37,930 nt of DNA from Saprospiraceae bacterium (GTDB taxonomy: Bacteria; Bacteroidota; Bacteroidia; Chitinophagales; Saprospiraceae), in the NCBI GenBank assembly GCA_015490715.1, contig WFXH01000027.1:1-37930 (forward strand), given 5' to 3'. The notes beneath the pieces were generated by a model, which saw only the letters and a program-made list of their open reading frames with translations, was not told the DNA's origin and ran no database searches. Position 1 is the first letter of the stretch; each line of letters begins with the position of its first letter. The position numbers and the translations under genes were made by a program. Below are positions 488 through 36,224 of the stretch, piece after piece.

Positions 488-2347
488 CTACATACGCTCG
501 GGTACTTCCATGCCGAGCAAGTACATGCCGTCTTTGATGATCCGCGCTGTGGTGCGGCAGAGCTGCCATCGGAAGTGGCGCGCCTCTTCCGTCTCAGCTT
601 GGACAATGGGCTGTTCGTGATAAAATCGATGAAAGCTGCGGGCAAGCTGGTACAGGTAATTGGCCAGCACTGCGGGATTGTACTCTTCGGCGCTCTGTTG
701 GAGTGCTCTGGGGTATTCGAGCAGCTGCTTGATCAGGGCAATCTCCACCTCGACGGGCTCGTAGGTGCTGTCGTTCCCCATGTCTTCGTCTAAGGATACG
801 CCCAGCTTTCTCGCCACCCCGCAGATACGCACATAGGCATTCTGGATATAGGGCCCCGTCTGTCCCTGCAGGTCGATGGACTCTTCGGGGTTGAAGATCA
901 TCTTCTTTTTGGCGCCCACGCGCAGGATGGCGTACTTGAGCGCAGCCATGCCAATCGCTTCGTAGATGTGCTCCTTTTCCTCTTCGGGCAGCCCTTTGAG
1001 CTCGCCACGTCCTTCCGACTCCTGACGTGCAAGGTGCACGACCTCGTCCATCAGGTCGTCGGCATCGACCACAGTGCCTTCGCGCGATTTCATCCGCCCA
1101 TGGGGCAATTCGACCATGCCGTACGAGAGGTGATACAGCCCCTCTGCCGAAGGAAAGCCCAGCAACTTCAGTATGGCAAAGAGCGCCTGAAAGTGGTATT
1201 CCTGCTCATCGGCCACCACGTAAATCATCGCATCGGGCTGAAACTCCTCCTGCCGCAGATACGCGATGCCGATGTCTTGCGTCACGTACAACGAGGTGCC
1301 GTCCTTGCGCAACAAGACGCGCCTATCCAATCCCTGGGCGCTGAGGTCGACCACCACGGCGCCGTCGTCTTGCCGCTCGAAGAGGCCCTCCTTCAACCCC
1401 TGCAATACGTAGGCCTTGCCGAGTTGGTACACTTCCGACTCGTAGTACACCCTGTCGAAGTGGGCGTCGAGGCGTTGAAAGGTCTGCTCGATCCCTTCGA
1501 GGACCCATGCGTTGAGCTTCTGCCACAGGGCGCGCACTCCCAGATCGCCGGCCTCCCAGGCGCGGAGCATCTCCATCGCCTGGCGCGCTAAAGGGCTGTG
1601 TTGTTGGAAGTAGGTGTTTTTATAGCTTCGGAAAAACGCCTTTGGATCCTTGCCCTCACCATGTTGCCGATAGATACGTTGCGCCTCCTCGCTCTGCTGC
1701 CATTGCTCATACTCTTCCTCAAACTTTTGCGAAAACAGCACGTAGAAGTCGCCCACCAGCTTATCGCCCTTGATGGGAGGACGATAGTCGTTGGGGCCCT
1801 TGCCCTGTCCCCACCGCTGCCACGAGAGCATACTCTTGCAGATGGCAATACCGCGATCGTTGACGACCTGGGTAGTGCGCACGCGCCACCCTTGCGATTG
1901 CAAGATGCGGCTGATGGCCACACCCAGCACGATATTGCGTATATGTCCTAAATGAAGGGGCTTGTTGGTGTTGGGACTGGCGTATTCCACCAGGGCGAGT
2001 TTGCCGCTTTCGGGCCGATGGCCGTACTGCGGCGTTTGAGCAATGGTATAAAATTGTGCGCGCCATGCTGCAGGACTGAGGTAAATGTTGAGAAAGCCCT
2101 TGACGGCCTCGTGCCTTTCGATCTCTTCGAAATGGCTGCTGAGGTACTCGCCCAGCGCACGGCCTATGTCCTCTGGCGACTGTCGAAGCACACCCGCCAG
2201 AGGGAACACGTAGACGGTAAAATCGCCCTTGTCGGCCTCGTGATTGAGGGTTATGCGGAGTTTTATTTTGTTCGGATCTGTATGAAATCGTTGTTCGACG
2301 GCACGGTGCACCATTTCATACAGCCAAGCAGGCGCGGATTCTTTCAT
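488..2347 (-). CDS. argS: Arginyl-tRNA synthetase
   Basis: Class I aminoacyl-tRNA synthetase that charges tRNA-Arg with arginine using ATP, in the cytosol. The 619-residue length is close to the usual ArgS size. In order it has the ArgS-type N-terminal tRNA-binding domain (about 1-95), the HIGH signature as HLGH at 132-135 after the conserved ASPNTNKP, a KMSKS-loop equivalent MKSREG at 419-424, and a C-terminal DALR anticodon-binding helical domain (about 490-619). It is third in a same-strand run after rel and the Fur-family gene, 33 bp behind the latter, so cotranscription is likely. The first 70 bases of the gene contain a perfect 11-bp inverted repeat (see the separate entry). Identification is secure. 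Confidence 0.97.
   Translation of the reverse strand: MKESAPAWLYEMVHRAVEQRFHTDPNKIKLRITLNHEADKGDFTVYVFPLAGVLRQSPEDIGRALGEYLSSHFEEIERHEAVKGFLNIYLSPAAWRAQFYTIAQTPQYGHRPESGKLALVEYASPNTNKPLHLGHIRNIVLGVAISRILQSQGWRVRTTQVVNDRGIAICKSMLSWQRWGQGKGPNDYRPPIKGDKLVGDFYVLFSQKFEEEYEQWQQSEEAQRIYRQHGEGKDPKAFFRSYKNTYFQQHSPLARQAMEMLRAWEAGDLGVRALWQKLNAWVLEGIEQTFQRLDAHFDRVYYESEVYQLGKAYVLQGLKEGLFERQDDGAVVVDLSAQGLDRRVLLRKDGTSLYVTQDIGIAYLRQEEFQPDAMIYVVADEQEYHFQALFAILKLLGFPSAEGLYHLSYGMVELPHGRMKSREGTVVDADDLMDEVVHLARQESEGRGELKGLPEEEKEHIYEAIGMAALKYAILRVGAKKKMIFNPEESIDLQGQTGPYIQNAYVRICGVARKLGVSLDEDMGNDSTYEPVEVEIALIKQLLEYPRALQQSAEEYNPAVLANYLYQLARSFHRFYHEQPIVQAETEEARHFRWQLCRTTARIIKDGMYLLGMEVPERM
2278..2323. repeat. 11-bp inverted repeat inside the argS 5' end
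   Basis: CTGTATGAAAT at 2278-2288 and its exact complement ATTTCATACAG at 2313-2323 are separated by 24 bp. Both arms carry the recurring TATGAAATSG word found elsewhere in the window. The repeat lies about 25-70 bases into argS. It could form a hairpin in the argS mRNA or bind a dimeric protein; neither is shown. Confidence 0.6.
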
Positions 2348-2380
2348 GGTCGAATGCGGTTTTTCGATGGAGGGGCAAAG

Positions 2381-2863
2381 TTACGACGCCTGCGTCGATT
2401 GGACGGATGGGCGGTGTGGACAGTGGGACTTTCGGCAACGCACGTAGATGAGTAGGGCGTGGTGGTGCACCTCGAAGTCATAGGCCTCTTCGATGTGGCT
2501 GAAGATCTCCTGCAGGGCGGGATCGCAAAATTCGACGATGCGCCCGCAGTCTTGGCAAAGCATATGGTCGTGTTGGTATCGGCCGAGAGCCTTTTCGTAG
2601 ACGGTCTTGCCCGTGTCGAATCGGTGCGCCAACACCAGACCCGCACGGCTGAGGAGTTCTAAAGTGTTGTAGACGGTGGCGAGGCTGAGTCCGGGATGCC
2701 GCTCCTGGAGCACCTCGTGAAGCTTGGCCGCTTCGATGTGGCCGTTGTGGGCATAGATGGCTTCAAGTACTGCCATGCGCTCGGGCGTCTTCTTGAGCTT
2801 TTGGGCCTTGAGAAAGGCTTCGAAGCGCCGGAGAGCCTGCTGCAGCGTGGATTCGTCGGGCAT
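2381..2863 (-). CDS. Fur-family transcriptional regulator
   Basis: Metal- or peroxide-responsive DNA-binding repressor of the Fur/PerR/Zur family, 160 residues. The N-terminal winged helix (about 10-85) carries the family pattern LSLATVYNTLELLSRAGLV. The dimerisation domain has the metal cluster HDHMLCQDC (98-106) and a second Cys pair, CRKSHC (143-148), giving a CxxC + CxxxxC structural zinc site, with the HHH run at 133-135 as further ligands. The sequence does not show whether it senses iron, zinc or peroxide. It begins 10 bp after the rel stop codon and precedes argS by 33 bp, so it is probably expressed from the rel promoter. That would couple a metal/redox regulator to the stringent-response gene. 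Confidence 0.93.
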   Translation of the reverse strand: MPDESTLQQALRRFEAFLKAQKLKKTPERMAVLEAIYAHNGHIEAAKLHEVLQERHPGLSLATVYNTLELLSRAGLVLAHRFDTGKTVYEKALGRYQHDHMLCQDCGRIVEFCDPALQEIFSHIEEAYDFEVHHHALLIYVRCRKSHCPHRPSVQSTQAS

Positions 2864-2873
2864 GGACGAGGGT

Positions 2874-5105
2874 TTAAATGCGCGTCACGTTGGTCACGCC
2901 CTTGACTTGGGAGAGCTTGCGCATGACGACTTCGAGTTGGTCTTTGTTTTTGACCACTACGCTGAGCTTGCCAGTGAAGTAGCCCTCGCGCCCTTCGATG
3001 TTGAGCGAGCGTATGTTGAGCCCCAGCTCGTTGGATATCGTGTTGGTGATGCGCTGGATGACGCCCGGGCCGTCGTCGATGCCGTTGAGCTGGAGGTCGA
3101 CGACAAACTCGCGATCGAGGACGACGTGCCACTCGGCCTTCAGGGCGCGATAGCCAAACTTGGCGAGCATGTTGGTAGCATTGGGACAGGTATAGCGGTG
3201 GATCTTAAACTCCTTGTTTTTCGTCACGTAGGCAAAGACATTGTCGCCCGGCACGGGATTACAACAGCTGGCTAAGGTGTACTTGTACTTCGAAGCGGGC
3301 TCGCCATCGATGTACAGCGTCTGCGGCATGAGGGCCTCGCCATTCGAACTCAGTGTAACGCGCCTGGCATCTTTCTTCTCGCTGGCAGGACCGCTCGGCT
3401 CCCTGTACTTGAGGCTGCCGTGTTCGATATCGAAGTCCTTGAGTACCTCATTGAGGTCGACCTTTTCCTGTGCCAGTAGGTAGTATAGATCAGCTCTGGA
3501 GCTCAGCTTGAGATGCTTGACCAGGACGTCGACGTTTTCCTCGAAGTCGAGTTTGAGCTTGCGAAACTTCCGGAGGAGTTTTTCCTTGCCGCTTTCGCCG
3601 AGCTTTTTGCGCTCTTCCTTCATGGCGGCGCGTATTTTGGAGCGCGCCTTGCCCGTGATGACCATGTTGAGCCATGATTCGCTCGGCTTTTGGTTGCGAG
3701 AGGTGATGACTTCCACCTGGTCACCACTCTTGAGGCGATAGCCCATGGGCACGATGCGGTTGTTGACCTTGATGGAGTGGGCGTGGTAGCCCACTTCGGA
3801 GTGGATGGCAAAGGCAAAGTCGAGCGCCGTAGCGCCCTTGGGCAGTACGATCATGTCGCCGCGCGGTGTGTAGACGTATACCTCCTCGCGGAACAAGCTC
3901 GTCTTGAAGTCGGTGATAAACTCCAGGGCATTGGAATTGGTGTTTTCGAGCAGCTCACGTATGGAGTCAAACCACTTGTCGAATACGCTGTCGCCGCTGA
4001 CCCCCTTGTACTTCCAGTGTGCAGCAAAGCCCTTCTCTGCAATTTCGTTCATGCGCGTGGTGCGTATCTGCACCTCCACGTATTTGCCCTCCGGGCCGAT
4101 GACCGTGGTGTGGAGCGATTCGTAGCCGTTGGACTTAGGCGTGGTAATCCAATCCTTCAGCCGCTCGGGAATGGGGCGATATACATCGGTGACGATGGAA
4201 TACACCTCCCAGCAGGCGGACTTTTCGCGCTCTCGGGGCACGTCGACGATGATGCGTATGGCAAAGAGATCGTAGATTTCCTCAAAGCTGACCTTCTTGG
4301 TCTTGATCTTATTGAGTATGGAGGAGATAGACTTGGCGCGGCCGAAGATTTCAAACTTCAGTCCCGTCTCCTTGAGCCGCTTCTTAATCGGACGTATGAA
4401 GCGCCGAATGTAGTTTTCGCGCTCGGCTTTGGTCTCGCGCAGCTTGCGCTTGATGAGCTCGTAGTTGTCGGGTTCGGTGATTTTGAGGCAGATGTCTTGC
4501 AGTTCGGTGCGGATGTTGTACAGGCCGAGCCGATGGGCCAACGGGGCGTAGATGAAATTGGTCTCAGCGGCAATCTTGAGTTTTTTGTGCTGGGGCATTA
4601 CATCAATAGTGCGCAGGTTGTGCAGTCGGTCGGCTATTTTGATGAGCACGACGCGCACGTCGTCGAGCAAGGTGCTGAGCACCTTCTTGTAGTTTTCGGC
4701 CTGGGGGCTTTCGACGTTGTACAGGCCGTCGAGTTTGGTCAAGCCGTCGACGATTTTACCTACGCGCGGGCCAAAGAGCTGATGCACTTCTTCCGAAGTC
4801 ACTTCGGTATCTTCGACGATGTCGTGGAGGATGGCTGCCGTGATGGCGGTGGGTCCTAAGCCGATCTCGCGTTTGCAGATGATGGCCACTTCGAGGGGAT
4901 GGGTGACATACGGTTCACCACTTTTGCGCCGCTGGTGGGCGTGCGCATGGTAGGCGAGCTTGTACGCCCGCTTGATCATCTGACGATCCTCCTCATTGAG
5001 CTCGTGATAGCGAATGGCGCGCTTGAGCCGCCGCCAAACCGATTCGATCAGGCGGTGATCCTCCTCCGAATACACGCGTGAAGTCGTCTCCACCGGCAAG
5101 GTCAT
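2874..5105 (-). CDS. rel: Bifunctional (p)ppGpp synthetase/hydrolase (Rel/SpoT)
   Basis: Makes and degrades the alarmone (p)ppGpp in response to starvation. The 743 residues show the full RSH layout: an HD hydrolase domain with HDIVED at 94-99 (intact, so hydrolysis is expected), a synthetase domain (about 250-365) with GRAKSISS, EIYDLFAIRII and the substrate loop TTPKSNGYESLH, a TGS domain (about 408-470), a zinc-finger-like segment with the adjacent Cys pair ASCCNPVPGD (about 615-660), and a C-terminal ACT domain (about 665-743). Because both catalytic domains look intact, I call it a bifunctional Rel rather than a monofunctional RelA. It is first in a minus-strand run with the Fur-family gene and argS. 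A good Bacteroidota promoter lies 84 bp upstream of the start. Confidence 0.97.
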   Translation of the reverse strand: MTLPVETTSRVYSEEDHRLIESVWRRLKRAIRYHELNEEDRQMIKRAYKLAYHAHAHQRRKSGEPYVTHPLEVAIICKREIGLGPTAITAAILHDIVEDTEVTSEEVHQLFGPRVGKIVDGLTKLDGLYNVESPQAENYKKVLSTLLDDVRVVLIKIADRLHNLRTIDVMPQHKKLKIAAETNFIYAPLAHRLGLYNIRTELQDICLKITEPDNYELIKRKLRETKAERENYIRRFIRPIKKRLKETGLKFEIFGRAKSISSILNKIKTKKVSFEEIYDLFAIRIIVDVPREREKSACWEVYSIVTDVYRPIPERLKDWITTPKSNGYESLHTTVIGPEGKYVEVQIRTTRMNEIAEKGFAAHWKYKGVSGDSVFDKWFDSIRELLENTNSNALEFITDFKTSLFREEVYVYTPRGDMIVLPKGATALDFAFAIHSEVGYHAHSIKVNNRIVPMGYRLKSGDQVEVITSRNQKPSESWLNMVITGKARSKIRAAMKEERKKLGESGKEKLLRKFRKLKLDFEENVDVLVKHLKLSSRADLYYLLAQEKVDLNEVLKDFDIEHGSLKYREPSGPASEKKDARRVTLSSNGEALMPQTLYIDGEPASKYKYTLASCCNPVPGDNVFAYVTKNKEFKIHRYTCPNATNMLAKFGYRALKAEWHVVLDREFVVDLQLNGIDDGPGVIQRITNTISNELGLNIRSLNIEGREGYFTGKLSVVVKNKDQLEVVMRKLSQVKGVTNVTRI

Positions 5106-5140
5106 ACCTGCCCAGATTTATTGCGACCTCCTTCCCTGCA

Positions 5141-5170
5141 CCATTTCATCACGAAAAGCACGATTTTATA
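5141..5170 (-). repeat. Tandem copies of the recurring word in the rel leader
   Basis: On the minus strand TATAAAATCG (5161-5170) and GATGAAATGG (5141-5150) lie in the same orientation, 20 bp apart start to start, about two helical turns. Both are followed by TGC. They fall between the predicted rel transcription start (about 5182) and the rel start codon, so they would be in the untranslated leader. Confidence 0.5.
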
Positions 5171-5188
5171 CCCATTTACTCCAAATGA

Positions 5189-5196
5189 CAAATATA
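5189..5196 (-). promoter_or_regulatory. Bacteroidota-type promoter of the rel operon
   Basis: The minus strand reads TATATTTG, a perfect match to the -7 consensus TAnnTTTG. A TTG (-33 element) lies exactly 20 bp upstream at 5217-5219. Predicted start of transcription is about 5182, leaving a leader of about 77 nt before the rel ATG. Confidence 0.7.
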
Positions 5197-5296
5197 CGAA
5201 AATGTTTTTATCGACACAAGCTAAAAGCCCTACAAATTTTATGCAAACGGCCATTACAGAGGTGTCGGAGATAGAAGCACTGTCTTCAGCTATCTG

Positions 5297-5304
5297 TATC
5301 TTTA
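5297..5304 (+). promoter_or_regulatory. Possible promoter of coaX
   Basis: TATCTTTA matches seven of eight positions of the TAnnTTTG -7 element and lies 20 bp before the coaX start codon. No -33 TTG is seen at the right distance, so this is tentative. Confidence 0.35.
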
Positions 5305-5323
5305 TCGCAGCAAAACGAAAGCG

Positions 5324-6130
5324 ATGTCTGTGCACATAGCTGTCGACTTAGGCAACAGTACGTGCGTGCTGGCGAGCTTTGACGCCGTCGGGCAGCGCAA
5401 CATTGTGCACTTTGCCACTTCCGATATCCTAGCGGGCAAGGCCACCTGGGAGAAGATGGTACGCAGCGTGTTGGGCGACCGGACCGCAATGAAGGGCGAT
5501 GTCATCATCAGCTCGGTACACCCCAGGGCACTTGACGTACTCTTATCGCAAATGTATCGGCACGACGTGCAAATCTTCCTGCTCGATAGGCGCACCTACC
5601 CCTGTTTGCCCATCGATGTGCTCAACCCGGAGGAGATCGGTGCTGATTTAGTGGCATCGGCGCTCTATGCCTATGAATTAGAAAAGACGCATTGGCTCAT
5701 CGTCGGCATGGGCACGGCGTTGACCTTTACCCTTCTGGATGCCACAGGAGCCATCCGCGGGGTCAACATTGCGCCGGGCGCCATCCTTTCGCTCGACATT
5801 CTGGCCAACCAAACGGCCCTATTGCCCAAGGTAACACTGGAGGAAACGACTCACCGCTTTGGGCGCCACACTCAGGAGGCCATCATCAACGGGGTGATTG
5901 GAGGCATCATCGGAAGTGTGCACTATCACTACCAACAAGCGAGTGCTGAGCTCGGCACAGCTCCGCAAATGCTCCTCACCGGCGGCTATGCAGACTTTTT
6001 CTCGCCACGCGTTGCCCCGCCTCACCGCATCGAGCAATACGCCGTCATCGGCGGATTGATTCACGCTTACCGATACCTCCGCAGCCGTCCCTGTGAAGCT
6101 AAGCACCGTAGGCTTGAGAAAGCGAAGTGA
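5324..6130 (+). CDS. coaX: Type III pantothenate kinase (divergent)
   Basis: Phosphorylates pantothenate with ATP, the first committed step of coenzyme A synthesis. The 268 residues show the acetate/sugar-kinase-fold signatures of CoaX: phosphate-1 motif DLGNST (8-13), the catalytic-Asp motif as GADLVASA (106-113), the phosphate-2 motif as GMGTALTF (128-135), and [12 protein letters not shown] (146-157). Two residues normally conserved in the family differ: the Arg of GxDR is Leu here, and the Asp before GT (DxGTA) is Gly. The presumed catalytic Asp of the GAD motif is present. Activity or cation dependence may therefore be altered (inference). Its 3' end overlaps convergent prfC by 32 bp. 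Confidence 0.82.
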
Positions 6131-19625: not shown

Positions 19626-19993
19626 GGGGCTGACTGGCTTCGACAGGGAAGTCGGTGTGTTAGTAAGCATGCCGCAGTATGGTAGCACACTGCGTTATCA
19701 AACGCTACCGACGCGATAAGTGGCAACACGAACGTTGCTCTGGCTGCCTAATCCAGTAGACTAAGGCGCCAGTGCGCGATCAGGTTGACGCCCGATACAT
19801 ACCTGACGCGCATCGGTCTCGTTCGGGCTGGCCGGAAAGCTGCCTCGACTTTCCGGTGAGATACAAGAGGCTCGGCATTTCCCAACGCCGTTGCCGTGCC
19901 GCGGGAAATGCGACTCACACCGAACGGCAACTAAGCATGTAGAAAGCTAACGCACGCTTGCCCTGGACCGGGGTTCGACTCCCCGCAGCTCCA
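19626..19993 (+). ncRNA. ssrA: Transfer-messenger RNA (tmRNA)
   Basis: Rescues stalled ribosomes and tags the incomplete protein for degradation. The 5' end GGGGCTGACTGGCTTCGACAGG is the standard tmRNA start, and the 3' end has the T-arm GGTTCGACTCC and CAGCTCC, which pairs with GGGGCTG over seven positions (one G-U) to form the Ala acceptor stem. The discriminator A at 19993 is followed by CTA, so CCA must be added after transcription. The tag frame at 19722-19751 reads GNTNVALAA then TAA; with the Ala carried by the RNA the tag is A-GNTNVALAA. It lies between the OmpA-family gene and the GlmU-like gene. Confidence 0.95.
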
Positions 19994-20047
19994 CTACTCC
20001 TCTCTACCGCCTTTTTCGTATATTGCCCTCCAACCAGTACCTCTACC

Positions 20048-24683: not shown

Positions 24684-25955
24684 ATGATTTACGTCGATTC
24701 AGAAATCAACCCCCTGCGCAAAGTCATTATCCACCGACCTGAGCAGGGCATCGAACGCATCTCTCCACAGGATAGCGAAAAACTCCTCTTCGACGATATC
24801 GTCTACCTGCCGCAAATGCAACGCGAACACGAAGTTTTCGCCGACGTGATGCGGCAATTTACCACCGACGATGGCGTCATCGAAGTCGAACAACTCCTCG
24901 TCGAAACCTTCGACGCCACCGATGAAGGCAAAGAGGAAATCCTTCAGCTCATCCTGCAATTTGAAGAACTCCCCGCTTCGTGGATCGAAAAACTGCGGCC
25001 GCTCTCCCATCGCGAACTCGTCCGCACGCTCCTCAGCGGATACCTCGCCACCGAAGACCGCTATCTCTTCAGTCCCATACCCAATTTCGTCTTTACGCGC
25101 GACATAGCTGTCGTCGTCAAAGACCATGTCTTCATCACCAAGGCCAGCCGCGCTGTGCGCCAACGCGAAAATCTCCTGACGCGATTCTTCTTCCGCTATC
25201 ACCCATCGTTTCAAGACATGATTCGCGAAGACCACATGGTCAACTTCAACAACATCGAAAAATACCCACCCTCCCGCACCGGCCAGCCCGTCGCCCTCGA
25301 AGGAGGCGATATCATGATCTTGTACGAAGATTACCTCATCGTCGGCATCAGCGAACGCACCAACCTCCACGGATTCGAAACCCTCAAGCGAGAAGTGTTC
25401 GACCGCCAGCTCGTCGAATACGTCGTCAAAGTAGCCATACCCCCGCAGCGCAGCTACATGCATTTCGACACTACCCTCACCCAGATTGACGAAAAGCGCT
25501 TTGTCGGCTACAAACCCATCGTCATCGAAGGCCTCGGCTCCAATATCGTCGTCTACGGCAAAAAAGGCACCCAGCGCAACTACGGTTCCTTCAAGGAGTT
25601 TCTCCACGGCGAAATCGACCCACAGATCGAAATCCTGCGCGTGGGACGCGGCATCTCGCCCTTCCAAGAACGCGAGCAGTGGACTGATGCCGCCAATGTC
25701 TTCGCCCTTGCCCCCGGCGTCATCCTCGCCTACGACCGCAATCCTCATACCCTCCAACTCTTCGAAGAAAACGGATTCCAGCTCTTGGGCGCCGAGCAAT
25801 TTCTTCAGCGCACCGCCATGGGCGAGCTCAATCCAGCTTCTCTTCGCAATACCGTCATCAGCCTACCCTCCAGCGAACTGTCGCGCGCACGCGGTGGCCC
25901 ACATTGCATGACGCTGCCCCTCTGGCGAACATCGAAATCCAATCATTGCACATGA
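24684..25955 (+). CDS. arcA: Arginine deiminase family protein
   Basis: Hydrolyses arginine to citrulline and ammonia, the first step of the arginine deiminase pathway. The 423 residues show the amidinotransferase-superfamily catalytic elements: FTRD (137-140), EGGD (206-209), ISERT (222-226), the His/Asp motif MHFDT (259-263) and the nucleophile Cys408 in GGPHCMTLP, all in the order of ArcA. It sits 20 bp after ychF and has an ATGA overlap (25952-25955) with the following secreted-protein gene. No ornithine carbamoyltransferase or carbamate kinase is nearby, so it may serve nitrogen supply or acid resistance rather than the full energy-yielding pathway. A second, distinct superfamily member (CtlX-like) lies 4.7 kb downstream. 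Confidence 0.93.
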   Translation: MIYVDSEINPLRKVIIHRPEQGIERISPQDSEKLLFDDIVYLPQMQREHEVFADVMRQFTTDDGVIEVEQLLVETFDATDEGKEEILQLILQFEELPASWIEKLRPLSHRELVRTLLSGYLATEDRYLFSPIPNFVFTRDIAVVVKDHVFITKASRAVRQRENLLTRFFFRYHPSFQDMIREDHMVNFNNIEKYPPSRTGQPVALEGGDIMILYEDYLIVGISERTNLHGFETLKREVFDRQLVEYVVKVAIPPQRSYMHFDTTLTQIDEKRFVGYKPIVIEGLGSNIVVYGKKGTQRNYGSFKEFLHGEIDPQIEILRVGRGISPFQEREQWTDAANVFALAPGVILAYDRNPHTLQLFEENGFQLLGAEQFLQRTAMGELNPASLRNTVISLPSSELSRARGGPHCMTLPLWRTSKSNHCT

Positions 25956-27367: not shown

Positions 27368-27470
27368 GGGCAAAAAATATGAGCACAAATTTGGCCAATA
27401 ATCCAGAAAGTACGAACTTTGTATACAGCAATATGCCGACATATCGTTGAAATATTAAATCAATTGACCT

Positions 27471-27608
27471 ATGAAAAAGCGAATGTGGATGCGTATAGCC
27501 ATGCTTGCAGTGGTCATTGTTCTCCTCTCTGCATGCAACCGCGGCGTGGGATGCCCAAGTGATTTTTCAGTACACGTCGATGGCCTGCATGCCGTATTGC
27601 CATTTTAA
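27471..27608 (+). CDS. 45-residue small lipoprotein
   Basis: A short frame with a clear lipoprotein signal: MKKRMWMRIAMLAVV then VLLSAC, predicted lipidated Cys22, leaving a mature peptide of about 24 residues (CNRGVGCPSDFS...). A basic N terminus, hydrophobic core, a good lipobox and a second Cys six residues later make it a credible real gene. It is flanked by the divergent acyltransferase gene and a non-coding stretch before the TonB receptor. No family recognised. Confidence 0.65.
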   Translation: MKKRMWMRIAMLAVVIVLLSACNRGVGCPSDFSVHVDGLHAVLPF

Positions 27609-27831
27609 GGACCACCGCATTTTTTATTTCCCCCCTACGTGTGGACACTCTTCTTCCTTTAATGCGTTATCCCTCGCCGGGAAATATGTATCCTCATAGA
27701 CCATCAGAACATCCTCTATTGTAGGCGATATACCCGTTTACCCTGCCTACCATTTCACACACAATAGCCATCTACACTGCTCGGTAACCTTATTCACAGG
27801 GGCATCTATGAGCATGGGCTCCGCAGACATG

Positions 27832-27857
27832 AGAAATTTTTTATATAAAATATTTCT
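27832..27857. promoter_or_regulatory. 26-bp near-perfect palindrome, candidate operator
   Basis: The left half is AGAAATTTTTTAT and the right half is its reverse complement at 12 of 13 positions (one mismatched pair, position 7). It ends 20 bp before the likely -7 element of the TonB receptor, so it covers the expected -33 region and the sequence just upstream. A dimeric regulator could bind there. It is a different motif from a canonical Fur box. Confidence 0.55.
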
Positions 27858-27877
27858 ACATATATGAAAAACTACGT

Positions 27878-27884
27878 TATTTTG
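27878..27884 (+). promoter_or_regulatory. Possible -7 element of the TonB receptor gene
   Basis: TATTTTG, one T short of TAnnTTTG, about 53 bp before the ATG. The position relative to the palindrome supports it, but the match is imperfect. Confidence 0.4.
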
Positions 27885-27936
27885 CCCCCGATAACTCAGG
27901 GTCTTAGACGAACCAACTAACCAAAATATCCAAATT

Positions 27937-30531
27937 ATGAAGAGACTAACGACAGCGTTTATCGCACTGGTCTGCAGCACAGGGCTCCTCATGGGCCAAG
28001 CTACCCTCAAGGGTAAAGTAGTGAGTGCTACCTCCGACGAACCTCTGATCGGTGCTTCGGTCTTATTGGCCGGCACCAATAAGGGTACAGTGACCGACGT
28101 AGACGGCATGTTTAGCTTAAAAGACGTCCCGAGCGGAACGCAAACCCTTGAAATTTCCTACCTCGGATACCAGACGCGGACCATTCAAGTCGATGTGCCG
28201 TCGAGTGGAATGGTCGACCTCGGCACCATCGAGCTGGAAGAAGGCGGTGTAGGCCTCAAAGAAGTCGTCGTCACCGGCGTGATGGACATCGTACGAGATC
28301 GACGTACCCCTGTGGCCGTATCGACCATCACCGCTCAAGAAATCCAATTAAAGAGCGTGGGCAATGTCGAATTTCCCGAAGTGATGAAAAACACGCCTTC
28401 GGTATACGTATCCCACCAGACGGGCTTTGGCGATTCGCGCATGTACCTGCGCGGCTTTGACCAGGTCAATACGGCCTTCCTGCTCAACGGCCAACCCATC
28501 AACGGCATGGAAGACGGCAAGATGTACTGGTCGAACTGGGCAGGAATGTCCGATATCGCCACGCTCGTCCAAGTGCAACGCGGCCTCGGAAGCTCCAAAC
28601 TCGCCATCTCCTCCGTAGGCGGTACCGTCAACATCGTCACCAAGACCATCGAAAACAAAAAAGGCGGCTTCGTCCGCTTCATGCTCGGCAACGACAACTA
28701 CATCAAGGGAACCGTGGCCTACAACACAGGACTGATTAACAACAAATGGGCCGTGTCTTTCCTCTTAGACCACTGGCAAGGCGACCGCAAATGGCCCGAT
28801 GGCACCTGGGGTAGCGGACAAAATTACTTCTTCAGCGTCGGCTATAAACCCGCCGCCAATCACTCCGTCAACTTCCTCATCACCGGCGCTCCACAGTACC
28901 ACGGGCAGCGATGGTCCCAAAAGGAATCCACCATCCGCGAAAACCCGCGCTTTAACCAACACTGGGGCTACGACTATGTCGACGGCGACTCCATACTCAT
29001 GACTGAGCGCCTCAACTTCTACCACAAACCCATCATCAACCTGAGCTGGGATTGGGACATCGACGAAATTTCCAAGCTCTCTTCCGTACTCTATGCATCC
29101 TTCGGCCGCGGTGGCGGTACAGGCCCCTACGGAAGAAAGCGCGTCCGCACCGCAGATGGACAGGTCGACTTTGCCGCAATCCGCAAAAACAACGAACAGG
29201 ATAGCGACGGCATAGGCAAGTACCGCGAAAACTACGCCCTGCGCGCCTCTATGAACAACCACCAGTGGTACGGCAACGTCACCAACTACGAACGTCAACT
29301 TAACGACAACATCAGCTTGAGCCTCGGCTGGGATTTCCGCTGGTATACCGGCGACCACTTCCGTCAGCTCGTCAACCTCCTCGGATTACAAGGCTGGAAC
29401 GACGCCTACCGCCATCACAGCCGTCCCTCCGACTACGTCGTCACAGCAACCTTCGATCCCAACCCCTGGACCACCGTCTTCAAATACGCCAAACCCGAAG
29501 AACGCATCGCCTACGACTACTCCGAGACCATCAATTACCAGGGCGTCTTCGGTCAAGTAGAATACGTCCAAGGCCCCTTTACCACCTTCGTCCAGGGCGC
29601 ACTGTCCAATCAAACCTATCAACGCCAGGGCCGCTGGACCTCTAACGAAAAGTCCAAAAAGGTCAACCGCCCCGGCTTCAACATCAAAACCGGCGCCTCG
29701 TACACCGTGATGGACAACCACACTGTGTTCTTCAACACGGGATACTACTCACGCCAGCCGTTTTCGGACAATATCTACAAAGACGTGCGCTATTCCAACG
29801 AGCACCTGCCCACTGTGGCCAACGAAGAAATCCTTGGCTTCGAAGCAGGGTATAAGTTCCGCATGGGCTCGTTCCTCCGTGCCAACCTCAACTTCTACTC
29901 CACCCGATGGGGCAACCGCACCTACATCCGCATCTTCACCAACGACAACGGCACGCCCGACGACGAGTCCGACGACTTTACCCAACGCAACGTCGAAACG
30001 GGCATCGGCCAACACCACAAAGGCGTCGAATTCGACATCGCTCTCAAGACCGATATGCTGACGTGGAGAGCCTACACCTCTATCGGCGATTGGCGCTATC
30101 TCAAAATCCGCAAAGTGACCGCCTACAACGACGACACCGGTGAAGTCATCGCCGAAGACGAAGGCGCCGACCTGACCAACGTCCACGTGCCCAATGCACC
30201 ACAACAACAATTCGGTAGCTCCATCCGCATCGAGCCCATCCAAAACCTCATGTTCGACCTCGACTTCAACTACTACGCCAAAATCTACCGCAGAGACGGC
30301 GCATCCAGCCGAGACATCATCATCCGCGAAGACCTCGGCGTACTCGATCCCTACTACATGATCGATGCCGGCCTGGGTTACAAAATGCAGTTCGGCCAAT
30401 ATCCCATCACCTTCCGACTCAACGTCTACAACGTCGAAAACAAGCAAACCGTCATCGTCCAAACCGATCCCTACGGCGTCATCAACCACAACGGATTGAC
30501 CTGGAATGCCTTCGTACGAGTAGACTTCTAA
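27937..30531 (+). CDS. TonB-dependent outer-membrane receptor
   Basis: Outer-membrane active transporter of 864 residues. Signal peptide MKRLTTAFIALVCSTGLLMG, then a carboxypeptidase-regulatory-like beta-sandwich (about 22-105: LKGKVVSATSDEPLIGASV ... VDGMFSLKDVPSG), the TonB plug (about 108-235, with VVVTGVMD near its start), and a 22-strand-type barrel ending in an aromatic residue (FVRVDF). The substrate is unknown. No SusD-type lipoprotein follows, so it is not a SusCD pair; it is shorter than typical SusC proteins of about 1000 residues. It may import iron, cobalamin or a small oligosaccharide. A 26-bp palindrome upstream suggests regulated expression. A strong terminator follows 54 bp after the stop. 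Confidence 0.95.
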   Translation: MKRLTTAFIALVCSTGLLMGQATLKGKVVSATSDEPLIGASVLLAGTNKGTVTDVDGMFSLKDVPSGTQTLEISYLGYQTRTIQVDVPSSGMVDLGTIELEEGGVGLKEVVVTGVMDIVRDRRTPVAVSTITAQEIQLKSVGNVEFPEVMKNTPSVYVSHQTGFGDSRMYLRGFDQVNTAFLLNGQPINGMEDGKMYWSNWAGMSDIATLVQVQRGLGSSKLAISSVGGTVNIVTKTIENKKGGFVRFMLGNDNYIKGTVAYNTGLINNKWAVSFLLDHWQGDRKWPDGTWGSGQNYFFSVGYKPAANHSVNFLITGAPQYHGQRWSQKESTIRENPRFNQHWGYDYVDGDSILMTERLNFYHKPIINLSWDWDIDEISKLSSVLYASFGRGGGTGPYGRKRVRTADGQVDFAAIRKNNEQDSDGIGKYRENYALRASMNNHQWYGNVTNYERQLNDNISLSLGWDFRWYTGDHFRQLVNLLGLQGWNDAYRHHSRPSDYVVTATFDPNPWTTVFKYAKPEERIAYDYSETINYQGVFGQVEYVQGPFTTFVQGALSNQTYQRQGRWTSNEKSKKVNRPGFNIKTGASYTVMDNHTVFFNTGYYSRQPFSDNIYKDVRYSNEHLPTVANEEILGFEAGYKFRMGSFLRANLNFYSTRWGNRTYIRIFTNDNGTPDDESDDFTQRNVETGIGQHHKGVEFDIALKTDMLTWRAYTSIGDWRYLKIRKVTAYNDDTGEVIAEDEGADLTNVHVPNAPQQQFGSSIRIEPIQNLMFDLDFNYYAKIYRRDGASSRDIIIREDLGVLDPYYMIDAGLGYKMQFGQYPITFRLNVYNVENKQTVIVQTDPYGVINHNGLTWNAFVRVDF

Positions 30532-30584
30532 GAGTTAACGGGAGCTATTTTCTATTTTTTTGTTTAGGACAACATAACTATTGT

Positions 30585-30620
30585 GCCCACACCTGCTTTG
30601 CAGGTGTGGGCATTTTTTTT
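30585..30620 (+). terminator. Strong intrinsic terminator of the TonB receptor gene
   Basis: Perfect 12-bp stem GCCCACACCTGC / GCAGGTGTGGGC with a TTT loop, then A and eight T. It ends 20 bp before the stop of the convergent CtlX-like gene. Confidence 0.93.
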
Positions 30621-30640: not shown

Positions 30641-31582
30641 TTAAATCGTTGGCGGGCAGAAGATTTCCGCGATCATGCAGCGTGCACTGCCACCACCTAA
30701 AGCCTCAATCGTGCCAATGTCGACGGGTAAGAGCTGTCGTCCACCGCGCTCGAACACCTCCCGCTGGGCGGGTTTTAAATGTCGCAGTGCCGTCTGAGAC
30801 AACACCAAATAGTGCGTTCCATCGCTCGATCGCAACTCAATGACATTACCCACAAAGTGCTCAAGCTGGTCAAAATCGATATCGACGATCTCTCTGCCCG
30901 TCTGTTCGATACGGGTCAGGATGCGCTTGCGCTCTTGACGATCAACAATGCACTGGCTACAAACCACGACGAAGTCCGACCCTACGGCCATCAAGACATT
31001 GGTGTGATAGATCGGTCGACCTTGCCGATCTTGTACTCGAAAGAGCTGCACTTCATAGCCCATGATTTCGGCAAAGTACCGCAACACATCGGGATGCGTG
31101 CGCCTGCTGAGGGAGGCAAAGGCGATTTTATTGGTCCGATCTAAGACCATGCTGCCCGTACCCTCGAGGTACTTTTCCGCCCGCTCAAAGTGCTCTAAGT
31201 GGATCGTACGCCGAATGTCGTAGCGCTCCTTTAACCGTTGAAGGATATCTGCACGGCGCTCCCGACGACGGATGGGCGACATCATCGGATACAGTACTAC
31301 GGTACCATCGGCATGAAAGCTCACCCAATTGTTGGGGAACACCGCATCGGGCGAACCGGCACCATCGACATCTTCAAACACTTCGACATGTATACCGCGC
31401 TCCCTCAACGTCCGCACCATCCGATAAAATTCGTCTGCTGCGCGCTCGTGCACCGCCTCCGTCTGATCCATAGCGGAGTGAATGAAGGCATTGTCTTCAA
31501 GTGTATCGGCATTGATGCCAAAGCGCGCAGGCTTGACCATGAGGATGTGCGCCGTCGGTAGAACAATGTGCTTTGCCTCCAT
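30641..31582 (-). CDS. ctlX: CtlX-type citrulline/arginine-modifying hydrolase
   Basis: Amidinotransferase/arginine-deiminase superfamily member, 313 residues from ATG 31582 (an in-frame TTG precedes it). It resembles CtlX: MVKPARFGINADTLEDNAF, PDAVFPNNWVSFH (the Asp and Asn-Trp signature), LYPMMSPIRRRER, the catalytic His in YHTNVLMAVGSDFVVVC, and the Cys nucleophile in GGGSARCMIAEIF (Cys302). CtlX of Francisella is described as a citrulline ureidase; whether this protein takes citrulline or another guanidino/ureido compound is not certain. It is unlike the arginine deiminase at 24.7 kb in length and motif detail. A -7-like TATCTTCG lies on the minus strand at 31603-31610. Confidence 0.85.
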   Translation of the reverse strand: MEAKHIVLPTAHILMVKPARFGINADTLEDNAFIHSAMDQTEAVHERAADEFYRMVRTLRERGIHVEVFEDVDGAGSPDAVFPNNWVSFHADGTVVLYPMMSPIRRRERRADILQRLKERYDIRRTIHLEHFERAEKYLEGTGSMVLDRTNKIAFASLSRRTHPDVLRYFAEIMGYEVQLFRVQDRQGRPIYHTNVLMAVGSDFVVVCSQCIVDRQERKRILTRIEQTGREIVDIDFDQLEHFVGNVIELRSSDGTHYLVLSQTALRHLKPAQREVFERGGRQLLPVDIGTIEALGGGSARCMIAEIFCPPTI

Positions 31583-31696
31583 CAATGGTGGTTTTCCGCA
31601 CGCGAAGATAGACCAATATGCACAGAGTGCGATAATCAGTCCGCTACAGTTGTCACAAAGGTAGCCTTCTGTCGCTCCAAGTACGGTGCAATGGAC

Positions 31697-35179: not shown

Positions 35180-35533
35180 TTATAAATCTTCCTGTGAGAA
35201 TTGCTGGCTTTTCATCCACTTTTCCTCGCGTTCGACAAACTCGTCGACGGCGAGGACAGCGCGCTCGATCAAATCGTAATTGACCGAATAGTATTTAAAC
35301 TTGCCCTCCTTTCTGCAATGTAAAAGGCCGACTTTTCGCATGATGGCGAGATGCTGTGAGGTAATGGATTGTTCGAGATCGAGTGTTCGGTATATCTTTT
35401 GAACGTGTGTTTGACCCTCTTTATGAATGAATTCGAGAATTTGGATCCGCAACCGATGTGCCAATGCCCGCATCAATGCCTCCGCATATTCGAGCTTTGC
35501 CAGCCTCTGTGCAACCGTAGTCTTCGTGCTCAT
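35180..35533 (-). CDS. ArsR-family winged-helix regulator A
   Basis: 117-residue dimeric DNA-binding repressor of the ArsR/SmtB fold. The recognition helix lies in QSITSQHLAIMRKVGLL and the wing in CRKEGKFKYYSVN. The ELCVCDL metal site of classical ArsR is replaced by HVQKIYRTLDL, with a single Cys (in LLHCRKEGK), so arsenite/cadmium sensing at that site is unlikely. It has a promoter with both elements (TTTG, 21 bp, TATCTTTG) and two palindromes at the predicted transcription start, consistent with autoregulation. It is the same length as the second ArsR gene 199 bp upstream on the same strand and similar over most of it, so they are probable paralogues. Confidence 0.92.
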   Translation of the reverse strand: MSTKTTVAQRLAKLEYAEALMRALAHRLRIQILEFIHKEGQTHVQKIYRTLDLEQSITSQHLAIMRKVGLLHCRKEGKFKYYSVNYDLIERAVLAVDEFVEREEKWMKSQQFSQEDL

Positions 35534-35732: not shown

Positions 35733-36086
35733 TCATTCTTCCTCGTCTTCCCCGGCCAATCGAGCTACCAGATCGGCGATTTGCTCGATGCGCTCGCGAT
35801 TGAGGGAATAGTAGATGTACTTGCCCTGGCGTTTGGTATTGACGACTTTGACCCGTCGAATAATGGCGAGATGTTGGGAGGCGACGGACTGTTCCAATCG
35901 CAGCTTGATGTAAATATCGGTCACCGTTAAAGGTCCTTCGCTTTCGAGGAGCTCGATGATACGACGACGAAGCTTATGATTGAGTGCGCGCAATACCAGA
36001 GCTGCTTTGCGTAGCTTTTGATAGTCTAATGGCAATGTCTGTCCCCCCCTTTTCAAGAATACGGTCTCGTTCTTTTTTCTTTTCAT
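35733..36086 (-). CDS. ArsR-family winged-helix regulator B
   Basis: 117 residues from ATG 36086, which gives the same length as its neighbour; an in-frame ATG 30 bp upstream (36116) would add ten residues. The helix-turn-helix is EQSVASQHLAIIRRVKVV and the wing NTKRQGKYIYYSLN; the alpha-3 region VTDIYIKLRL lacks the metal-binding Cys pair. It shares about half its residues with regulator A by eye (for example SQHLAI and the RQGKY/KEGKF wing), suggesting gene duplication. No perfect promoter is seen. The signal sensed is unknown. Confidence 0.9.
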   Translation of the reverse strand: MKRKKNETVFLKRGGQTLPLDYQKLRKAALVLRALNHKLRRRIIELLESEGPLTVTDIYIKLRLEQSVASQHLAIIRRVKVVNTKRQGKYIYYSLNRERIEQIADLVARLAGEDEEE

Positions 36087-36224
36087 ATGCCAGTCATTTG
36101 AATTCCCGAAGTACATCCCTTTTTAATCCAAAAGCATACCAGATTGGGGTTTCGGGGAGGACTGAGGCGAAATTTTTTTCACTTATGCCTTTTCCTAATG
36201 TATAAGGCTTTGATTTGCATTCTA

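Follow-up and report, generated by a model that had tools for sequence, protein, structure and literature searches.

What does a near-perfect palindrome do in front of a gene for a TonB-dependent receptor? The question is raised by a stretch of 37,930 nucleotides (hereafter the window) from a Saprospiraceae genome, G000, of 2,454,194 bases in 115 contigs, in which an AT-rich dyad lies just ahead of such a gene. The first-pass annotation had read this dyad as a candidate operator, tied to the nutrient imported by the receptor, where a repressor would block the -33 region of the promoter. We compare the site here with the rest of its own genome, with the sister species G069, and with the upstream regions of homologous receptor genes outside the genus.

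The palindrome and the receptor promoter

The features on which the argument turns are the following.

27823-27928, plus strand: 106-bp block identical in G000 and G069, spanning the dyad, the promoter and the larger part of the 5' leader
27832-27857, no strand: AT-rich 26-bp dyad, AGAAATTTTTTAT followed by ATAAAATATTTCT, 12 of 13 pairs symmetric
27834-27850, plus strand: UP-element-like stretch AAATTTTTTATATAAAA, within the dyad, with 13 of 14 consensus letters
27853-27857, plus strand: putative place of the -33 element (TTTCT), from spacing alone, under the right arm of the dyad
27877-27884, plus strand: likely -7 element TTATTTTG, with one departure from TAnnTTTG, at the second letter
27885-27936, plus strand: putative 5' leader, 50 of 52 bases the same in the sister species
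27937-30531, plus strand: TonB-dependent receptor, 864 aa, with CarbopepD_reg_2 and Plug domains

The palindrome had been described as a near-perfect one of 26 bp with 12 of 13 pairs, and both its sequence and its coordinates are right: the two arms, 27832-27844 and 27845-27857, disagree in a single pair. The likely -7 element that had been placed about 20 bp past it is TTATTTTG, with 19 bases in between. Promoters of the Bacteroidota follow a -7/-33 scheme in which the -7 consensus is TAnnTTTG, and the ATG of the receptor lies 52 bases past the -7 element. From the position of this element, transcription would start at about 27888, and relative to this start the dyad would run from about -56 to about -31 and be centred near -43.5, the palindrome itself being left untranscribed. 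A terminator scan of 27450-28000 found none, the predicted fold of the leader is no better than that of shuffled sequences, and no Rfam family reaches its gathering score at the palindrome, which accordingly has the marks of neither a terminator nor an RNA leader element. The one Rfam family that reaches its gathering score in the window is tmRNA, with a gene at 19626-19996.

The symmetry is more than the base composition would give. The window has 55% G+C, and among all its 26-bp dyads the palindrome ranks first, the runner-up elsewhere reaching 10/13. Of 2000 first-order Markov resamples of the local 105 bp, none came to 12/13, nor did any of 40 resamples of the whole window; under a harsher null, confined to the AT-rich 54 bp, 23 of 20,000 resamples did, as did 84 of 200,000 shuffles of the palindrome's own 26-mer. 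The palindrome exceeds its local AT-rich composition about a thousandfold, yet not astronomically, and thus has the dyad symmetry beyond composition that the operator of a dimeric regulator should have. Among 184 sampled upstream regions of G000, two hold a 12/13 dyad, the palindrome included; the other one, together with the 11/13 dyad of this sample, resembles a terminator hairpin.

The receptor gene and its neighbours

Against NCBIfam, the receptor yields only matches below the cut-offs, and its matches by sequence in the PDB span just a short N-terminal or C-terminal part. The adjoining genes code for an acyltransferase and for CtlX, neither of which is a regulator. The gene of the CtlX-type citrulline hydrolase (30641-31585) and an arginine-deiminase-like gene (24684-25955) lie near the receptor gene, and several other Saprospiraceae have CtlX and a Vut_1 transporter directly upstream of the receptor and an LTD/DUF5689-type protein downstream of it, which in one instance bears a T9SS tail. 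Taken over the relatives, the neighbours of the receptor are CtlX, the Vut_1 transporter, LTD/DUF5689 secreted proteins, the endonuclease-family PF19580 and a phosphoribosyltransferase, which may hint at an uptake tied to nucleic acids or amino acids, but the lineages disagree. Between the receptor and CtlX genes, a strong hairpin (TGCCCACACCTGC...GCAGGTGTGGGCA, followed by a T run, 30584-30612) is probably a terminator common to the two. Upstream of the receptor, a small plus-strand ORF (27471-27608) encodes a 45-aa lipoprotein-like peptide (MKKRMWMRIAMLAVVIVLLSACNRG...), and the stretch 27443-27606 is 79% identical to the sister species.

Several regulators are encoded in the window or elsewhere in the two genomes of the genus. 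G000 and G069 have one Fur-family protein each, that of G000 being encoded in the window (2381-2863, minus strand) and giving its best scores with Fur models, below their cut-offs. Two tandem ArsR-family regulators are found on the minus strand at 35180-35533 and 35733-36116; at locus L090, homologues of this ArsR pair and of their TsaD-domain neighbour occur near the receptor gene, one gene apart. Both G000 and G069 have two OmpR-type DNA-binding domains, and neither has a PhoU match, which is also absent from G004.

Conservation in the sister species

Our comparison within the genus involves two genomes, that of the window (G000) and that of the sister species (G069), and the conservation of the dyad rests on one comparison because the genus is represented by these two only. 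The receptor is 97% identical between them, and 81 of 394 fourfold-degenerate sites in its gene differ. Immediately upstream of the identical block, 206 bp (27611-27816) do not align between the species, although the flanks of this stretch do, with 86% and 89% identity; the G069 counterpart of the non-aligning stretch is likewise 206 bp long. Eight other intergenic stretches of the same contig show 54-91% identity to G069, and the last 110 bp of the other sampled upstream regions have a median identity of 0.89. The longest exact runs in 33 orthologous upstream regions measure 138, 106 (the palindrome block), 98 and 68 bp, where the 33 are those out of 180 asked for which an orthologue was found among the fetched stretches, some of them being the two sides of one gap. 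Identical runs of 107 and 90 bp are also present in the coding sequence of the receptor. The promoter block ranks with the most conserved stretches without being the only one. The 138-bp run lies upstream of a 4.2-kb frame on the minus strand (1262-5473) of locus L204.

A finer comparison is provided by places where an A3T6 tract is followed by a -7 element. Five such places other than the receptor promoter are common to both species, and there 28 of 160 positions differ in the stretch from the tract to the -7 element; at the receptor, 0 of 34 differ, with a chance of about 0.0014. When the one place lacking a downstream gene is left out, 19 of 129 positions differ and the chance is 0.0044. 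The right arm of the palindrome is thus kept between the species, not merely the A/T tract. In this one species pair the site is, as an operator should be, kept by selection.

Search for further copies

A search for the palindrome ahead of other transporters had been proposed as a check, and it returned no second site in G000 and none before the plug-domain genes examined. With up to 3 mismatches allowed, the palindrome itself is the sole match to its pattern in the whole of G000. This genome has 17 plug-domain genes, for 16 of which an upstream region was called, and the 15 others have no such dyad, with the proviso that some of the called starts are wrong. Allowing degenerate arms and up to 2 mismatches yields 19 sites in G000, where the reversed pattern has 5, and 16 against 9 in G069. 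The excess in G000 most likely reflects coding bias, since 17 of the 18 other sites fall within open stretches 100 codons or more in length; their dyad pairs come to at most 9/13. The same site is thus found in G000 neither at further targets nor at a regulator's own promoter, and because there is no second site, no regulon backs the reading as an operator.

The first-pass annotation would have given up its idea if no similar palindrome preceded homologous receptors in relatives. The sister species has the palindrome, so that the idea survives within the genus; outside it, the 75 other receptor upstream regions contain no such dyad, the best being 11/13, a score reached in 4 of the 75 with no evident enrichment. 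These 75 regions consist of 74 of 79 loci (five with late or missing starts omitted) plus three, minus one too short and minus the sister, and a few of them may repeat the same genome. By blastn against 398 genomes of the family, the block finds matches in 13, its own and the sister included; the 11 remaining matches are short and AT-rich (24-56 bp), with no evident downstream gene in common. Across the order, 9 of 396 genomes match the pattern, eight of them at 3 mismatches only, and the reversed control finds matches in 12 genomes, so these eight are at control level. None of the eight precedes an evident receptor gene, judging by the opening 70 residues of the frames nearby, and one order-wide match falls within a frame that, in its visible beginning, resembles a receptor. 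The palindrome is not general for the receptor family and is therefore a genus-level feature: a real, conserved, genus-specific promoter element.

A repeat box before orthologous receptors

The upstream regions of the orthologous receptors carry a motif of their own. TTAAC-N6-TTAAC, with at most one mismatch, occurs in 47 of 77 receptor upstream regions against 3.6 expected, the 77 including the window and the sister, both of which are negative. The other spacings of the TTAAC repeats that were tried are found in 12 regions at most, and TTAAC-N6-TTAAC itself in 5 of the 184 sampled upstream regions of G000. The repeats lie about 50-75 bp before the ATG (for example at L100, L109, L123 and L099). 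In the 23 regions that have a -7 element within 40 bp, the distance from the end of the repeat to this element is 20-21 bp in 10, 31-32 bp in 6, 9-10 bp in 3 and 0-1 bp in 4. A phasing of 11 bp is typical of OmpR/PhoB-family boxes, and on their sequence the orthologue repeats may be treated as a candidate for a box of this type, from which the promoters of the window and the sister depart by 3 mismatches at best. Read as GTTAA-N6-GTTAA, the motif is just as frequent, with 21 matches and similar phasing; because GTTAAC is its own complement, a one-way direct repeat is unproven in the orthologues. The repeats often end 20-21 bp before the -7 element, so the place of the palindrome in the promoter would be a regulator slot in the relatives, and the regulator that occupies it there is probably an activator.

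The candidate that comes to mind for such a box is a PhoB-like regulator. One is present in G043 (best model NF053854, below cut-off), and proteins of G032 and G004 are 57-58% identical to it; no such regulator was seen among the PF00486 proteins of the genus, two in G000 and two in G069, in a comparison that left out one G069 protein as well as seven proteins of other genomes for which there was no locus. G032 combines the regulator with the box, G004 and G043 carry the regulator but lack a box at 1 mismatch, and G019 (89% complete) has the box and no clear PhoB. The box combined with a -7 element is found at 8 sites in four genomes against 3 in the control, and at 1 against 3 in Flavobacterium. 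The genes after these 8 sites are the receptor, another outer-membrane receptor, a phosphodiesterase and two thioredoxin-like genes (one below cut-off); two further sites are followed by genes with no Pfam match, and one has no gene just downstream. That the TTAAC box is a Pho box is not established, its distribution not tracking the PhoB-like regulator. Pho control of the receptor family is possible rather than demonstrated, on the strength of phosphate-induced TonB receptors and LTD-domain nucleases reported for Flavobacterium johnsoniae (PMC8115612).

A proposed site for a dimeric regulator

We regard the palindrome as the predicted site of a dimeric regulator, an activator rather than a repressor, with a probability of about one half, a figure within which the repressor version is counted. 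A symmetric dimeric regulator would occupy the palindrome, which in this genus would be dedicated to the receptor promoter. Bound near -43.5, an activator would touch RNA polymerase beside the -33 region and would assist a promoter with a weak -7 element. The centre at -43.5 and the orthologue repeats near the same place are no less compatible with an activator than with a repressor.

Activators of the class II type have dimer sites centred near -41.5. Like the activator site of this type that is used by Mor at Mu Pm, the palindrome is a dyad, has its centre at about -43.5 and overlaps the upstream promoter element; unlike the Mor site, it is 26 bp long, AT-rich and without a known protein. 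For Mor of phage Mu, a dyad centred at -43.5 is reported as an activator site (PMC4390567). With the OmpR/PhoB-type box of the orthologues, which often ends about 20 bp before the -7 element, the palindrome shares the approximate slot and the receptor family; unlike that box, it has no repeats with an 11-bp period. Among 14 regulator boxes compared (Fur, Zur, ArgR and others), none fits the palindrome with P below 0.1. A tentative and somewhat unlikely history would connect the two kinds of site: the genus may have rewired its promoter, losing the box with the 11-bp period, and a dyad grown from a UP-like tract may have taken the slot for another regulator.

A possible UP-like element

The alternative that survives best, and that we consider a real possibility if not the probable one, is that the A/T tracts at about -57 to -40 form a predicted UP-like element, bound by the alpha C-terminal domains of RNA polymerase. 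The promoter would then be a strong one without a regulator, and the dyad a by-product of A tracts opposite T tracts. The UP-element consensus of E. coli, reportedly due to Estrem and colleagues in 1998, has its place at about -59 to -38; AAATTTTTTATATAAAA agrees with this E. coli consensus in 13 of 14 letters (P = 0.015, uncorrected for 15 other motifs tried) and, on the predicted start, matches its place to about 3 bp, so that an A/T-tract consensus is found at the right distance. The left half of the dyad, AAATTTTTT, also recurs 25-45 bp before TWNNTTTG, at 11 sites in G000, counting that of the window, where the reversed pattern has 2, and at 8 sites in G069, where the reversed pattern has 1. 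All 11 sites of G000 are outside called frames and 9 have a gene start within 250 bp downstream; of the 8 in G069, 7 lie outside frames and 7 are followed by a gene; in 7 of the 11, AAATTTTTT starts 40-45 bp before the -7 element (P about 0.016 if positions were uniform, for a range chosen post hoc). Two other outer-membrane receptor genes of G000 (L183 and L191) are among those preceded by these sites. The tract (27834-27884 in the window; L173-L191) recurs in other promoters of G000 without the dyad. A strong promoter free of a regulator would also be in keeping with the absence of the orthologues' repeats from this one.

Against this stands the symmetry itself, since UP elements need no perfect 6-bp outer arms (AGAAAT/ATTTCT), and a dyad that is roughly a one-in-a-thousand event for its composition is contrary to its being a by-product of the tracts. 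The stretch outside A3T6 is moreover invariant at the receptor and variable in the five other shared places. Among 32 sampled TAnnTTTG promoters, a general A/T peak at the UP distance is not evident, and a limited literature search found no use of UP elements in the Bacteroidota. The palindrome is thus like an UP element in its A/T tracts and in their distance from the predicted start, and unlike one in that its symmetry is nearly perfect, its outer arms contain G/C and its right arm is invariant between the species.

Repression and chance

That the palindrome is the operator of a nutrient-bound repressor blocking the -33 region we consider unlikely. It is true that the -33 element would fall under the right arm of the dyad, that repression is common for receptors of iron, zinc or cobalamin, and that the window encodes the single Fur-family protein of G000 as well as two ArsR-family proteins. 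The dyad, however, ends at about -31 and leaves the -7 element and the start free, the orthologues have other repeats near that place, and the dyad is absent before the 15 other plug-domain genes with a called upstream region, although some of the starts called for them are wrong. The Fur box is a 19-bp GATAATGATAATCATTATC-like repeat and the Zur box a GAAATGTTATANTATAACATTTC-like dyad. The palindrome fits the former in 10 of 19 positions at best (null P 0.92), which bears out the earlier remark that it is AT-rich and not a canonical Fur box; it fits the Zur box in 14 of 22 (null P 0.10), resembling that of E. coli in the outer arms GAAAT...ATTTC and differing in its inner part and arm spacing; and it fits the SmtB-type core in 6 of 8 (P 0.40). 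The proposal of the first-pass annotation thus stands as to a real dyad in a strongly conserved TonB-receptor promoter and falls short as to the repressor, since an activator fits at least as well and the left half of the dyad is a recurrent UP-like promoter part.

More improbable still is that the symmetry arose by chance in an AT-rich promoter and owes its conservation to that of the entire promoter: many positions were open to the eye, 11/13 dyads occur in 4 of 75 AT-rich orthologue regions, and the two species share exact runs of 138 and 98 bp in two other sampled upstream regions, but AT-rich resampling reaches 12/13 in just 23 of 20,000. The probability left over by the dimeric regulator and the UP-like element belongs to chance or other readings.

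Meaning of the site

The palindrome is probably a switch or a booster of one receptor gene, and as such an ordinary kind of control element. A limited literature search found no description of the palindrome site or of the TTAAC box. Taken alone, the palindrome amounts to a single candidate control site, for one gene of an uncultured lineage; set beside the comparison of orthologues, it becomes a testable case of a control slot changing hands in a conserved nutrient-receptor promoter. The repeat box of the orthologues, which precedes a widespread receptor family of the Bacteroidota, is the more interesting by-product of this analysis.
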